Source: a virus. From it: 21,154 bases of DNA. Every line of letters starts with the position of its first letter. Positions within the stretch are counted from its first letter, which is position 1. The DNA lies in the IMG/VR virus record IMGVR_UViG_3300044733_000950, positions 1 to 21,154 of that record; one strand, given 5' to 3'. The notes below the pieces were generated by a model, which worked only from the letters and a program-made list of their open reading frames with translations, had not been told where the DNA came from and did not search any database. Below, one piece after another: positions 14,242 to 18,558 of the stretch. A program made the translations under genes and the position numbers.

Positions 14242-15057
14242 ATGAATAACCAAGTAGCAATTTTGCGTAGTTTTATCCACCTAATGAACAATGCTGACGA
14301 ATTATCAAAGCATGAACTTCTTCAAGAGTTGGAAGATTTTGCTCGTGATGAACTCAGTGTTCTTCGCCCATACTCAAGTAGTTTCCGTGATTATTTCAAG
14401 TTTGGCCACGGTGTCTACGACAGAGCACCTTTGTATCTCAATCAAAGTGATAGAGGTGACACAGCGTTTACTTATGGCTCACAGCCACCTGTAATGGGGT
14501 TTGAGTTAGAACTAGAAGCAAGCAAGCCAACACCTCATGCACTTGAGTTAGAGGAAATCGCTGCGAATATTCTTTCTTACACGGAAGATGTGATGTGTAA
14601 GCGAGATGGTTCATTGCAACATGGGTTCGAAATTATTTCGCAACCTGCAACATATTTCTACTACGAAAATCATTTCAACTGGAGTTGGCTCAAAGAAGTA
14701 ATCAAATCAGATTTCAAGGTCAATGGAATTGGTGAGCGTGGTTTTCATATTCATATCAACAGGGCTTCATTTGTTGATGAAGCACATACGCAAAGATTTG
14801 CTGACGCAATCGTTGCTGATGTGAAAATGTTTCAGAGATTATCAGTAGATAGTTTCTTTGCACCTGAACACCGTTACTGTGCAACAAGAACTTCCAATCC
14901 AGATGACAGTATTGGTAGATACTGTGCAGTGAACTTATTGCACAGAAATACTGTTGAGGTTCGTTGCTTTGAGCCAGTGCCCACAAAGGGTCAAATTCTA
15001 ACTTACATGCAATACATGTTAGACACACAAGAAAAAACAAAAGGAGAACAGCAATGA
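14242..15057 (+). CDS. Amidoligase-family protein, copy 1
   Basis: A 271-residue protein with the signature blocks of phage amidoligases (COOH-NH2 ligases of the glutamine-synthetase-like superfamily): MGFELELE (85-92), KRDGSLQHGFEIISQP (120-135), GFHIHINR (167-174) and GRYCAVNLLHRNTVEVRCFE (225-244). Such enzymes are predicted to use ATP to join a carboxylate to an amine; Glu, His and Arg in these blocks would bind ATP-Mg and substrate. Residues 1-80 form an unrelated helical N-terminal extension. All blocks recur in the 15511 gene, so the two are paralogues. It starts a three-gene unit; its stop overlaps the next start (ATGA). Substrate is unknown. Confidence 0.8.
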   Translation: MNNQVAILRSFIHLMNNADELSKHELLQELEDFARDELSVLRPYSSSFRDYFKFGHGVYDRAPLYLNQSDRGDTAFTYGSQPPVMGFELELEASKPTPHALELEEIAANILSYTEDVMCKRDGSLQHGFEIISQPATYFYYENHFNWSWLKEVIKSDFKVNGIGERGFHIHINRASFVDEAHTQRFADAIVADVKMFQRLSVDSFFAPEHRYCATRTSNPDDSIGRYCAVNLLHRNTVEVRCFEPVPTKGQILTYMQYMLDTQEKTKGEQQ

Positions 15058-15206
15058 CAAGTAGTTACATCAAGATGCAACTCAAGCAAATCAGAGCAAC
15101 ATTGGATAACGCAGAGACTGATATTCAGTTGTTGCAAGAAGAGAACAAGCGTCTGCTCAAGCAAATTGCAGAACTAACGAAAGAAATGGAGAGCGTAAAT
15201 GAATAA
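15054..15206 (+). CDS. Small coiled-coil protein (50 aa)
   Basis: A 50-residue frame starting inside the stop of amidoligase 1 (ATGA), with AAGGAG upstream. The whole length is helical with a leucine-zipper-like heptad pattern: KMQLKQIRATLDNAETDIQL, then LQEENKRLLKQIAELTKEME. It should dimerise as a coiled coil and could be a partner or scaffold of the amidoligase. It overlaps the next gene by 8 nt. No known family is recognised. Confidence 0.6.
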   Translation: MTSSYIKMQLKQIRATLDNAETDIQLLQEENKRLLKQIAELTKEMESVNE

Positions 15207-15375
15207 GACAACCAAAACAGCATTGTATGCAATGAAGAAAGATGAACTCGTTGAGTTCGCATGGAAGATGGTCAAGGCATACAATCAGTCACAAGAAGAA
15301 CGAGATTACCAACGCAGACTGTTAGAGTTTGCATTGCGTAAAGCAGGTGATGTTCACGCAGAACAAGTTGCGTGA
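15199..15375 (+). CDS. Small helical hypothetical protein (58 aa)
   Basis: A 58-residue frame, ATG 15199 to TGA 15373-15375, overlapping the coiled-coil gene. The sequence is helical and charged: MNKTTKTALYAMKKDELVEF, then AWKMVKAYNQSQEERDYQRR and LLEFALRKAGDVHAEQVA. The Leu/Val positions are compatible with a helical hairpin. It ends the amidoligase 1 unit, and palindrome copy 4 follows 14 nt later. It may be a partner of the coiled-coil protein; no motif identifies it. Confidence 0.55.
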   Translation: MNKTTKTALYAMKKDELVEFAWKMVKAYNQSQEERDYQRRLLEFALRKAGDVHAEQVA

Positions 15376-15389
15376 GCACCGCTCATACA

Positions 15390-15411
15390 AACTGAGACAT
15401 GTATCTCAGTT
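15390..15411 (+). promoter_or_regulatory. Palindromic element copy 4
   Basis: AACTGAGA (15390-15397), spacer CATGTA, TCTCAGTT (15404-15411); the arms extend to 9 bp (15389-15412). A small TGAGC/GCTCA hairpin (15373-15385) lies just upstream, overlapping the stop codon. Confidence 0.77.
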
Positions 15412-15416
15412 TGCGT

Positions 15417-15464
15417 GGGCGAGAGTGCATCAGTATTCCCCTATTTATTGGTGCATTCTCGCTC
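15417..15464 (+). ncRNA. 19-bp hairpin after palindrome copy 4
   Basis: Arms 15417-15435 and 15446-15464 pair over all 19 positions with four G-U pairs, around a 10-nt pyrimidine-rich loop. All changes keep pairing at the RNA level, so it probably acts as RNA. The 3' part of the left arm and the start of the loop read CAGTATTCCC, which also occurs at 19757-19766. No T-run follows. Confidence 0.6.
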
Positions 15465-15510
15465 ATGACATTCCGTTATGAGAAACAAACAACAAACAGA
15501 AAGGGCTATC

Positions 15511-16545
15511 ATGCCACTAAATGACAACATAGAGTACAGAGACTGCTACAACTGTGGTGAAACCATGGATGTAGACGACATGTACGCAAACGAATACGAC
15601 GACAACTTGCGTTGTTGTGATTGCAATAGCGACTACGAGCGTGATTGCGAAGCAGAGTACGAGGCAGAACGAGAGGAACACAATCTCATTCACAGTTACT
15701 CGTACAAGCCGAGTGCAATCTTCCTCAACGACGACGGTCACAAGTCGTACTACGCAACTGTTCCAGATGCAAACTCACGCCGTACATCTTTGTACATGGG
15801 CTTTGAGTTGGAGTTGGAGACAGGTCGTTTCCCAACGAGAGATTGTGCACAGTTTGTGCTTGAGACAATCAACACGGAAAGCAACGACATTGTGTATCTC
15901 AAAGAAGATGGCTCATTGGAAAACGGGTTCGAAATTGTTTCGCACCCAATGACATTGGGCTTTGCAATGGAACACTTTGCATGGGATGGTATTAGTGGTC
16001 TCATCAAGCGTGGTTGCAAATCATGGGATGCAGGTACTTGTGGTCTGCATGTTCACTTGTCACGCTCTGCATTCAGAGACGAGAAGCATCTGTTCAAGTT
16101 CTTCAAGTTGATACTTGATAACGCACCAGATGTGAAGCGTTTCGCAGGTCGTGACAGCGAGCGTTGGGCTAACTTTGACAAGGGTTATTTCCTCAACGCA
16201 TGGAATGAGTACAACGACGATGGCAACTATGTCAGTCGTACCAACGACTCGTTGATGAAGTTTGCAAAGAACGAAAGTCGCAATGACAATCGTTACTGTG
16301 CTGTGAACTTACAGAACCGTCACACCGTTGAGTTGCGTTTCTTCAAGCCATCACTCAACCCTAAGACTGTTCAGGCTGCTTTGCAGTTCTGTGATGCAGT
16401 CTTCAATTACACAGAGACAGAGTGCGACACTAAGAAAGTTATGTCTGGAAACGCTTTGGCGTTTCGTTCATTCCGTTCATGGGTTGCCACGCAAGAGCGT
16501 TACGCCTTGCTCTCTACTCGTATCGCAGAGCGTTGCGATAACTGA
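15511..16545 (+). CDS. Amidoligase-family protein, copy 2, with N-terminal Cys cluster
   Basis: A 344-residue paralogue of the 14242 gene, started at ATG 15511 (AAAGGG upstream) rather than ATG 15478. The N-terminus has C12-x2-C15 and C35, C36, C38, a probable zinc site absent from copy 1. An acidic helix follows. The amidoligase core then has MGFELELE (96-103), KEDGSLENGFEIVSHP (131-146), CGLHVHLSR (177-185) and RYCAVNLQNRHTVELRFFKP (261-280). The His/Arg block is the expected CGLHVH form. An insertion at about 212-258 is missing from copy 1. Predicted ATP-dependent amide-bond formation; the substrate is unknown. It is a single-gene unit between palindromes 4 and 5. Confidence 0.82.
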   Translation: MPLNDNIEYRDCYNCGETMDVDDMYANEYDDNLRCCDCNSDYERDCEAEYEAEREEHNLIHSYSYKPSAIFLNDDGHKSYYATVPDANSRRTSLYMGFELELETGRFPTRDCAQFVLETINTESNDIVYLKEDGSLENGFEIVSHPMTLGFAMEHFAWDGISGLIKRGCKSWDAGTCGLHVHLSRSAFRDEKHLFKFFKLILDNAPDVKRFAGRDSERWANFDKGYFLNAWNEYNDDGNYVSRTNDSLMKFAKNESRNDNRYCAVNLQNRHTVELRFFKPSLNPKTVQAALQFCDAVFNYTETECDTKKVMSGNALAFRSFRSWVATQERYALLSTRIAERCDN

Positions 16546-16561
16546 GACATGTATCTCAGTT
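16540..16561 (+). promoter_or_regulatory. Palindromic element copy 5
   Basis: AACTGAGA (16540-16547), spacer CATGTA, TCTCAGTT (16554-16561), identical to copy 4. It overlaps the stop codon of amidoligase 2 and is followed by a CA-rich unstructured leader. Confidence 0.77.
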
Positions 16562-16610
16562 TCTTTACATCACAAATCAAACAAACAACAAACAAAGAAA
16601 GGAACACAAT

Positions 16611-17627
16611 ATGTGTTTACTAACATTCATTCCTGATTATGTCTCTCCAGACATGGACAGGTTCAGGACAGCAGCGAAAGCAAATCCAGATGGCTTTGGT
16701 TTCGCAATATCAACAGGCAAGAAGATTGTGACTTATCACAGTATGAACTTTGATGAGGTTGCAAACAAGTTCATTGACTTGCGACGAACACACAATGGTC
16801 CTGCAATCTTCCACTTCCGTTGGGCAACCCACGGTAGCGAGACTGTTGCCAACTGTCACCCATTCTTCTTGGGCAAAGACACACAATCAGTCGTTGGTCA
16901 CAACGGCATTCTTCCAGTTGCCATTCCCAAAGGTGATGTACGTTCAGATACGAAAGTGTTTGCACAAGATATCATGCCGGGAGTTGGTGGCATCACTTCA
17001 CTTGATGATGATGATTACTACAAGAAACTAGAAGCATGGGCTACTGGTTCTAAGTTGGTATTCCTCACAGTCAATGAAGATGCCAAGCAAGACTGGTACA
17101 TTCTCAACGAGAAGTCTGGTCATTGGGACAAGGACATGTGGTGGTCTAACTACTCATACGAAGAAGTTGTATACAAGACTTACGGTTCCACTTCATACAA
17201 GTCAAGTGGCAGTCTTTGGGGTTACGACGACTGGGACTATGGCTACAACAAGACCACATACGCTTCGTCGTGGGATAACAAGACTGATGCAGGCTTGTAC
17301 ATTCCTGACTACGACGACGAACTTGAGTATCTTGCAGAAGAGCAGACACAACAGTTTGATGTGTTCACTACGCACATTGACGACAATACGCAACTCATTG
17401 AGTGTTACAACTGTGCTCACGCACACAAGACACCTGCTGGTGTATTGGAAACACATTGTGATGAGTGCGGTGGTTGTCACTTCTGTGGTGCACAGTATCC
17501 ATGTGCATGTTGGTCAGCCATCTATCAGATATACGACCTTGAGGCTTTCAACGAAGATATCTACAATGCAAATGCTGTAGTTGTCCCAGCCAAATCACAA
17601 TCAACCACACACCCAAGTTACTACTAG
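16611..17627 (+). CDS. Class II glutamine-amidotransferase-like protein with C-terminal zinc ribbon
   Basis: A 338-residue protein. After Met removal, C2 would be the N-terminal nucleophile of an Ntn-hydrolase amidotransferase. Supporting blocks are NPDGFGF (25-31), HFRWATHG (68-75, as in GlmS RWATHG), NCHPF (81-85), VGHNGIL (95-101) and SDTKVFAQDI (112-121). Such domains take ammonia from glutamine. The family core ends near residue 165. A Tyr/Trp/Asp-rich linker and a Cys-rich end follow (C265, C268, C283, C286, C289, C292, C298, C300). No synthase domain is fused, so an amidoligase could be its partner. AAAGGAA precedes the ATG. It opens a long unit ending at 19723. Confidence 0.82.
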   Translation: MCLLTFIPDYVSPDMDRFRTAAKANPDGFGFAISTGKKIVTYHSMNFDEVANKFIDLRRTHNGPAIFHFRWATHGSETVANCHPFFLGKDTQSVVGHNGILPVAIPKGDVRSDTKVFAQDIMPGVGGITSLDDDDYYKKLEAWATGSKLVFLTVNEDAKQDWYILNEKSGHWDKDMWWSNYSYEEVVYKTYGSTSYKSSGSLWGYDDWDYGYNKTTYASSWDNKTDAGLYIPDYDDELEYLAEEQTQQFDVFTTHIDDNTQLIECYNCAHAHKTPAGVLETHCDECGGCHFCGAQYPCACWSAIYQIYDLEAFNEDIYNANAVVVPAKSQSTTHPSYY

Positions 17628-17634
17628 GAGAAAC

Positions 17635-17784
17635 ATGAACCAAGAAGAGCGGTACGCATACTACCTCGCTGCATTTCAGCGAGGGTTTGCACAAAACAAT
17701 ATCCGACTGAATGAAGTCACATTTGATGACCTCATTCCTGACTCACTCAAAACAGAAACAAACACACAAGGAGAAAGCAAATGA
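17635..17784 (+). CDS. Small hypothetical protein (49 aa)
   Basis: Start at ATG 17635 with AGGAG six bases upstream, seven bases after the amidotransferase stop; the longer TTG frame from 17581 is rejected. The 49 residues (MNQEERYAYYLAAFQRGFAQ, then NNIRLNEVTFDDLIPDSLKT) are acidic with one amphipathic helix. The stop overlaps the next start (ATGA). No known family is recognised. Its position suggests co-expression with the amidotransferase. Confidence 0.55.
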   Translation: MNQEERYAYYLAAFQRGFAQNNIRLNEVTFDDLIPDSLKTETNTQGESK

Positions 17785-18314
17785 CAACAATCAAACTAAT
17801 CCCATCAACAATGGAATTCGAGGTATCTGTAGATAGTGCCTCAATGCCATCATTGTTCAGTCAGTCAATGGAAACAACCATTATTGAGGAAGTGGAACGA
17901 CATGTAAACGGTCGCATTCCAAATCATCAGTCAGTTGTTGATGATGTGTCTTCAACGATAATGGAAGACCGGGACTACACACGCAAAGTGCGTAACTGGG
18001 TTCTGGAAAGCATTGACTACTCACAGATAATTAGTGAGGTTGGTAGTAATCTTGATTACCAACAACTCATTGACCTAACAGCACCACTGTGGGAGAACGA
18101 AATGTTCTTGCGTCATCTCATGAATAACAACCGTTTCAGGAACTTGGTGAACACTCAAGTACAGGCGAACATCTCCTCAACCTTTGATATCTCCACAATT
18201 AGGGACATGGTTGATGAGAAAGTTGAGCGAGTTACAACCAATCTTTCCAACGAGATTGCAGAGAAAGTGCTCAAGGTTATTCAGAACCGATTGACAGCAG
18301 GTTCAGATGTTTGA
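17781..18314 (+). CDS. Hypothetical helical protein (177 aa)
   Basis: A 177-residue protein, mostly helical and acidic. Visible landmarks are an N-terminal beta-like start (TTIKLIPSTMEFEVSVDSAS), then helices with VVDDVSSTIMEDRDYTRKVR, NRFRNLVNTQVQANISSTFD and EKVERVTTNLSNEIAEKVLK. The last helix has coiled-coil spacing. AAGGAG precedes the ATG, which overlaps the upstream stop. It overlaps the WhiB gene by 8 nt, so the two are probably coupled. No family or catalytic residue is recognised. The repeating pattern of 30-40-residue helical segments might form a structural or adaptor protein. Confidence 0.6.
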   Translation: MTTIKLIPSTMEFEVSVDSASMPSLFSQSMETTIIEEVERHVNGRIPNHQSVVDDVSSTIMEDRDYTRKVRNWVLESIDYSQIISEVGSNLDYQQLIDLTAPLWENEMFLRHLMNNNRFRNLVNTQVQANISSTFDISTIRDMVDEKVERVTTNLSNEIAEKVLKVIQNRLTAGSDV

Positions 18315-18558
18315 GCCTGTGACGATAGACTTTACAGAAGCAAACTGTAAGTCTCAGCCAACTGTGTGGTGGTTTCCAGAATGGCCACCAACCAAACAGA
18401 AAATGAAAGAATGGAAGCAAGCAAAAGCAATTTGCTCTGAATGCTCACTGAAAGTTGAGTGCCTCGCTTACGGCAAGGCAACCAACTCATGGGGCATTTG
18501 GGGTGGTATCACACTAACCAACGGCAAAGCCGACTACAGAAAGAATAAAAAGAAATGA
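18307..18558 (+). CDS. whiB: WhiB-family iron-sulfur transcription regulator
   Basis: An 83-residue protein with the four WhiB cysteines: C14, then C43-x2-C46-x5-C52 (C-x28-C-x2-C-x5-C). The diagnostic G-I-W-G-G turn is at 63-67, followed by a basic tail (KADYRKNKKK) that should contact DNA or the sigma factor. WhiB proteins bind a [4Fe-4S] cluster and act with the primary sigma factor. They are restricted to Actinobacteria and their phages. The best-studied phage member, WhiBTM4 of mycobacteriophage TM4, interferes with host WhiB2 and cell division. Here it is embedded in an overlapping operon and could redirect host or phage promoters. Confidence 0.9.
   Translation: MFEPVTIDFTEANCKSQPTVWWFPEWPPTKQKMKEWKQAKAICSECSLKVECLAYGKATNSWGIWGGITLTNGKADYRKNKKK

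Follow-up and report, generated by a model that had tools for sequence, protein, structure and literature searches.

The window analysed here is the whole 21,154-base stretch of the IMG/VR virus record IMGVR_UViG_3300044733_000950, which is classed as linear, a class that often denotes a fragment. A preliminary description, made from the sequence alone, had picked out positions 14242-17627 as a phage cassette of two paralogous amidoligases plus a class II glutamine amidotransferase. The three open reading frames (ORFs) are indeed present on the plus strand with the motifs listed for them, and we refer to them as AL1 (14242..15057, 271 amino acids), AL2 (15478..16545) and GAT (16611..17627). 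All three genes are under purifying selection, with ratios of nonsynonymous to synonymous substitution rates (dN/dS) of about 0.1-0.27. The core unit is the AL2-GAT pair, which also occurs in mobile-element loci of actinobacteria and clostridia. AL1 is optional, lies outside this unit and moves independently of it.

AL2, the core amidoligase, matches the Pfam family Amidoligase_2 (PF12224) above its cut-off (E-value 9.8e-8; 32.6 bits against a cut-off of 22), as well as PHROGs 22302, 16683 and 2443. Its translation probably starts at 15511 and not at 15478, because a Shine-Dalgarno sequence (AGAAAGGG) precedes 15511 and the majority of relatives begin with MP there. Across 35 aligned AL2 homologues, G108, E110, E112, D144, S146, G150, E152, V154, P157, G189, H191, H193, R225, N277, T283, E285, R287 and F289 are invariant, and the motifs G-x-E-x-E, DGS, H-x-H and E-x-R are invariant or almost so. 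An AlphaFold2 model of AL2, for which the input alignment was built from the window and IMG/VR loci only, reached a mean predicted local distance difference test score (pLDDT) of 86. Its leading Foldseek matches in the PDB are YbdK, glutamine synthetases, glutamate-cysteine ligase (GCL), gamma-glutamylmethylamide synthetase (GmaS) and PafA, with probabilities of 0.96-1.00. The AL1 model (pLDDT 83, predicted TM-score 0.82) has glutamine synthetases, YbdK and GmaS as its top PDB matches. For both predicted structures, the confident matches are thus carboxylate-amine ligases of the glutamine synthetase/gamma-glutamylcysteine synthetase (GS/GCS) type, so the two proteins are predicted to share this fold, as their earlier designation as amidoligases would require.

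The N-terminal region of AL2 is rich in cysteines and resembles a zinc finger. At least two N-terminal CxxC motifs are carried by 84 of the 102 viral ligases and by 77 of the 81 from genomes, and it is plausible that these zinc-finger-like motifs, common to most ligases of the AL2 type, reflect a macromolecular substrate or a docking role. A LIM or RING identity was considered for these fingers, which gave weak matches only, and we claim neither.

The GAT protein consists of a class II glutamine amidotransferase domain, with its N-terminal cysteine, and a Cys-rich C-terminal region that is present on most viral GATs. It begins with MC, carries the motifs RWATHG, NCHPF and VGHNG, and matches phrog_25883 (1.2e-38). 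Its profile matches GlmS glutaminase domains (1xff, 1.4e-8) and, more weakly, PurF. Across 29 homologues there is no change at M1, C2, R70, H97-N98-G99 or D113, and the Cys2 nucleophile, the Arg, the Asn-Gly oxyanion hole and the Asp of class II glutaminases are all kept, which bears out the earlier assignment. The profile searches proposed in the preliminary description gave a mixed outcome, since AL2 passes the Amidoligase_2 cut-off but GAT falls below that of GATase_4 (2.2e-4) and AL1 below that of Amidoligase_2 (0.042, 14.1 bits).

The linkage of AL2 and GAT was surveyed in viral loci drawn from three overlapping IMG/VR sets and in bacterial genomes. In two overlapping GAT-selected viral sets, a ligase lies immediately upstream of GAT at every assessable locus (46 of 46 and 79 of 79). 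Conversely, GAT lies downstream in all 77 assessable ligase-selected viral loci, a set that overlaps the GAT-selected ones; one further locus is truncated. In bacterial genomes the ligase-GAT order is found at 73 of 80 loci, the other seven being three contig edges and four giant Pseudonocardia ORFs. These counts describe the AL2/GAT family and not all amidoligases, because the loci were retrieved by their relatedness to the query. The two genes overlap or are closely spaced across distant lineages; no fusion ORF was found among those searched, and the pair is therefore one of separate proteins. Its carriers are phages and mobile elements of diverse hosts. Serine recombinases, integrases or relaxases are found close to many of the clostridial loci, so these pairs are probably on mobile elements. 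The earlier expectation that the three genes would recur together holds for AL2 and GAT, whose linkage is near-obligate in phages and mobile elements, but not for the trio, since AL1 occurs at a small minority of loci and recombines alone.

Some loci depart from the simple pair. Nocardia vaccinii carries three ligase-GAT pairs in tandem (L082), and clostridial arrays of two ligases and a GAT contain recently duplicated ligases (L084, L094, L118, L124, L146). The giant Pseudonocardia frames (L079, L083, L115, L133) span 3,686 to more than 5,500 codons, run past the fetched stretch and contain one or two amidoligase domains, with no GAT in the same frame; L079 also has PP2C-like and trypsin-like domains. 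The mycobacterial plasmids NZ_CP025548, NZ_CP015269 and NZ_CP065286 carry GAT relatives, one of them annotated beside an amidoligase. A Lokiarchaeal occurrence (L086) was considered as an argument against a wall target and dropped, as its neighbours look viral and the metagenome-assembled genome may be misbinned.

On sequence comparison, the homology of AL1 and AL2 is strong and far beyond chance (BLASTP E-value 5e-25 over 200 amino acids at 32%; hhalign profile comparison 2.5e-31). Both contain MGFELELE, K-x-DGSL-x-x-GFEI-x-S-x-P, H-x-H and RYCAVNL-x5-TVE-x-R. The description of the two as paralogues therefore stands in respect of homology, but a recent duplication does not: in a quick tree with long branches, which call for caution, the AL1 sequences and that of the distant phage L210 form their own clade outside all AL2, and the idea of AL1 as a recent AL2 duplicate was rejected on this tree. 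By its sequence, AL1 represents a ligase subfamily that has diverged to below the Pfam cut-off. It has a helical N-terminus and no zinc finger, and the aligned copies are missing the stretch that holds Arg225, invariant in AL2, as well as some 50 residues at the C-terminus, with the helices there. The AL1 of the window keeps G-x-E-x-E, DGS, H-x-H and E-x-R, and these motifs are conserved across the clade that includes L210, although the surroundings of DGS are altered in L210 and in L011, where K-x-DGS has become K-x-ESS.

AL1 is present at about 8 of the loci representing ~99 non-identical viral GATs, namely the window, L011, L013, L015, L021/L022 and L210, with a fragment in L223. Relatives without AL1 have unrelated small ORFs in its place. 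Between the window and L013, synonymous divergence (dS) is 0.22 for AL1, 0.64 for AL2 and 0.70 for GAT. Against L011, AL2 has a dS of only 0.12, whereas the AL1 proteins are ~40% identical with dS near saturation. These discordant values indicate that AL1 recombines independently of AL2, and a dN/dS of about 0.25 indicates that it is not decaying. The fact that closely related phages have swapped AL1 suggests that variety may be selected for.

Most AL1 proteins have -GEQQ as their last residues, an ending that recalls the C-terminus of Pup. We rejected a Pup-like tail, because the DNA there holds a ribosome-binding site and the overlapping start of the next gene (AGGAGAACAGCAATGA), and because unrelated ORFs in relatives end alike. 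Such -GEQQ or -GEQK ends are seen at 15040-15057 of the window and on unrelated operon ORFs in L010, L012, L016, L018 and L020, and arise because the stop codon overlaps the Shine-Dalgarno sequence and the start of the following gene.

In the window, that following gene is a 50-amino-acid ORF (15054..15206, plus strand) overlapping the AL1 stop through ATGA; like AL1 it is close to the L013 and L015 copies (dS 0.08). A conserved ORF of 58 amino acids (15199..15375, plus strand) comes next, and is also upstream of AL2 in L017, L040, L042 and others. After AL2 and GAT, the same plus-strand unit continues with a 177-amino-acid protein (17781..18314), a WhiB-like regulator (18307..18558; Pfam Whib, 8.4e-10) and an exonuclease. 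The 177-amino-acid protein, a coiled-coil protein according to the preliminary description, has only weak family matches. Its placement in the same unit agrees with the conserved gene order of the window's phage group, but it does not accompany the pair elsewhere. A WhiB-like gene is also found at 62 of 92 other loci with the ligase-GAT pair, and its presence in the window suggests an actinobacterial host. The late genes, encoding the major head protein, scaffold, portal, TerL, tail fibre and TerS, are on the minus strand, and the remaining genes are on the plus strand, starting at ~13.3 kb. No PADLOC model of anti-phage defence matched at 0.01. In a terminally redundant relative, whose ends overlap by 123 bases, a read-through recognised structural genes along with an AEP-like primase and a DnaB-like helicase; RusA, a lysozyme-like protein and the exonuclease are encoded there as well. 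In a relative of the window phage, L232:7738-8673 encodes a primase that matches the AEP model of the TOTE conflict system and adjoins a DnaB-like helicase.

Class II glutamine amidotransferases free ammonia from glutamine, and ligases with the GS fold activate a carboxylate with ATP. The explanation that we favour, and regard as probable though far from assured, is a glutamine-dependent amidoligase that has AL2 and GAT as its two subunits. It draws on the computed folds, catalytic motifs, linkage and selection, and on the exchange of AL1. From these we infer the chemistry, the transfer of ammonia between the proteins, the timing, the substrate and the benefit to the phage. The N-terminal cysteine of GAT would hydrolyse glutamine and the ammonia would be handed to AL2, which would use ATP in a GS-like active site to activate the carboxylate of its substrate as an acyl phosphate, and would then convert it into an amide. 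The N-terminal zinc fingers of AL2 would probably serve to dock the partner subunit or a substrate, either a macromolecule or a peptide. The enzyme would be made early in infection, and its most likely target for amidation would be a peptide of the host envelope or a protein of the host, so that the infected cell could resist a second phage or a defence. AL1 would be an optional, exchangeable second ligase that probably alters the target or acts as a non-catalytic partner. The observations of the preliminary description are thereby confirmed, and its interpretation, in which GAT frees ammonia for an amidoligase, is partly supported. Several points weigh against the two-subunit enzyme. The Foldseek TM-scores lie at about 0.31-0.46 when normalised to query length, a modest range such as distant relatives give; no member of the zinc-finger ligase type with tested activity was found here; and no wall-synthesis genes were seen recurring beside the pair. 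Furthermore, C. difficile phage AR1086-1 has a ligase without a GAT nearby, and Bifidobacterium phage BP742P1 has a GAT without a ligase nearby.

Such solo genes, which occur occasionally, would also fit a scheme in which AL2 attaches an amine or amino acid without ammonia from GAT, and GAT works alone. GCL, YbdK and PafA, which are fold neighbours of AL2, use amino-acid or lysine amines, but the near-obligate pairing of closely spaced or overlapping genes over distant lineages makes this scheme rather unlikely. The zinc fingers of AL2 and the Cys-rich C-terminus of viral GATs raise the possibility that the pair, guided by these fingers, amidates a side chain or terminus of a protein for counter-defence or host takeover. 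The protein-modifying ligase PafA among the fold neighbours, and the range of phages and mobile elements that carry the pair, would agree with this. However, the fingers may only join the subunits, and the fold is common to small-molecule ligases too; we consider this proposal doubtful, if worth keeping in mind. A scheme in which all three proteins form a glutamine-dependent protein-amidation machine, with ammonia from GAT, the zinc-finger AL2 as the constant catalytic subunit and a frequently swapped AL1 directing it to different host defence or envelope proteins, strikes us as improbable. It is quite conceivable, though short of probable, that AL1 is a pseudoenzyme, a regulatory subunit or a passenger gene and not a second active ligase, given its loss of Arg225 and the C-terminal helices, the altered DGS motif of the L011 copy and the unrelated ORFs that can fill its slot. 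Its retained G-x-E-x-E, H-x-H and E-x-R motifs, their conservation as far as L210 and its dN/dS speak against this.

The pair might instead belong to the peptidoglycan modification cassette of phiEco32 and LUZ24 and build unusual wall-peptide linkages. The order of amidoligase and GAT is identical, and in a 12-sequence search the AL2 profile reached phiEco32 gp84 and the GAT profile reached the GATs of both cassettes, in each case as distant matches; the literature also reads such genes in this way (PMC5498523, PMC11945000). Yet searches for COOH-NH2_lig, GGACT and RimK were empty in the records of 19 relatives (the window genome itself being a fragment) and in Marvin, MEP402 and ctgrD200, and AL2 has zinc fingers that the cassette ligases lack, which leaves membership in that cassette unlikely. 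As controls, phiEco32 was positive for all three models, RimK being below its cut-off, and LUZ24 for the first two only, so the RimK (ATP-grasp) test is the weakest of the three. Finally, it is very improbable that the pair makes a hypermodified DNA base. The early-gene position in the phage is the sole point in favour, whereas no base-modifying partner was recognised among the ORFs of the terminally redundant relative, where the recognised replication and recombination genes are those for the primase, DnaB-like helicase, RusA and exonuclease.

The pair occurs widely among phages and bacterial mobile elements, where its genes are in tight linkage, and its function in the literature is a proposed one. 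As anticipated in the preliminary description, such genes had been predicted computationally, according to PMC10580990 and PMC11318856, both of which cite Iyer et al. 2009. The two-gene kit was thus predicted before, and AL1 adds an optional, divergent second ligase to it. Because AL2 and GAT make up the whole unit, and the culturable mycobacteriophage Marvin already carries it, the prediction could be put to a two-gene experiment in M. smegmatis.

Among known systems, the phiEco32/LUZ24 set, named a peptidoglycan modification cassette in PMC5498523 (citing Hardies et al. 2013 and Iyer et al.) and PMC11945000, has a core amidoligase followed by a class II GAT, in the same order as in the window. 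It has further genes, for a COOH-NH2 ligase (PF14395), an ATP-grasp protein and GGCT, and its ligases are without the N-terminal zinc fingers of AL2. AL2-GAT works like the core of this cassette but is not that cassette, because the relatives of the window lack its other genes. The OM43 (Methylophilales) phages MEP401 and MEP402 have adjacent ligase and GAT genes, as in the window, described as a PF12224 amidoligase and a GATase for which cell-wall or metabolite roles were proposed on the basis of earlier papers (PMC10580990); unlike the window, they have a Gram-negative host, a long N-terminal extension on the ligase and no AL1 that we could see. Clostridial and actinobacterial pairs, many on mobile elements, share the gene order and the ligase zinc fingers, and some have two ligases before the GAT, but the clostridial tandem ligases are recent duplications, unlike AL1 and AL2, and the neighbours differ from those in the window (e.g. 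DUF3846, DUF960, DUF1643). In Marvin (cluster S), a profile search detected no AL1 beside the pair, and gp105 has a C-terminal extension. Its gp105-gp106 are annotated as the same ligase-then-GAT pair, and match AL2 at 33% over 92% of its length and GAT at 40% over the glutaminase domain.

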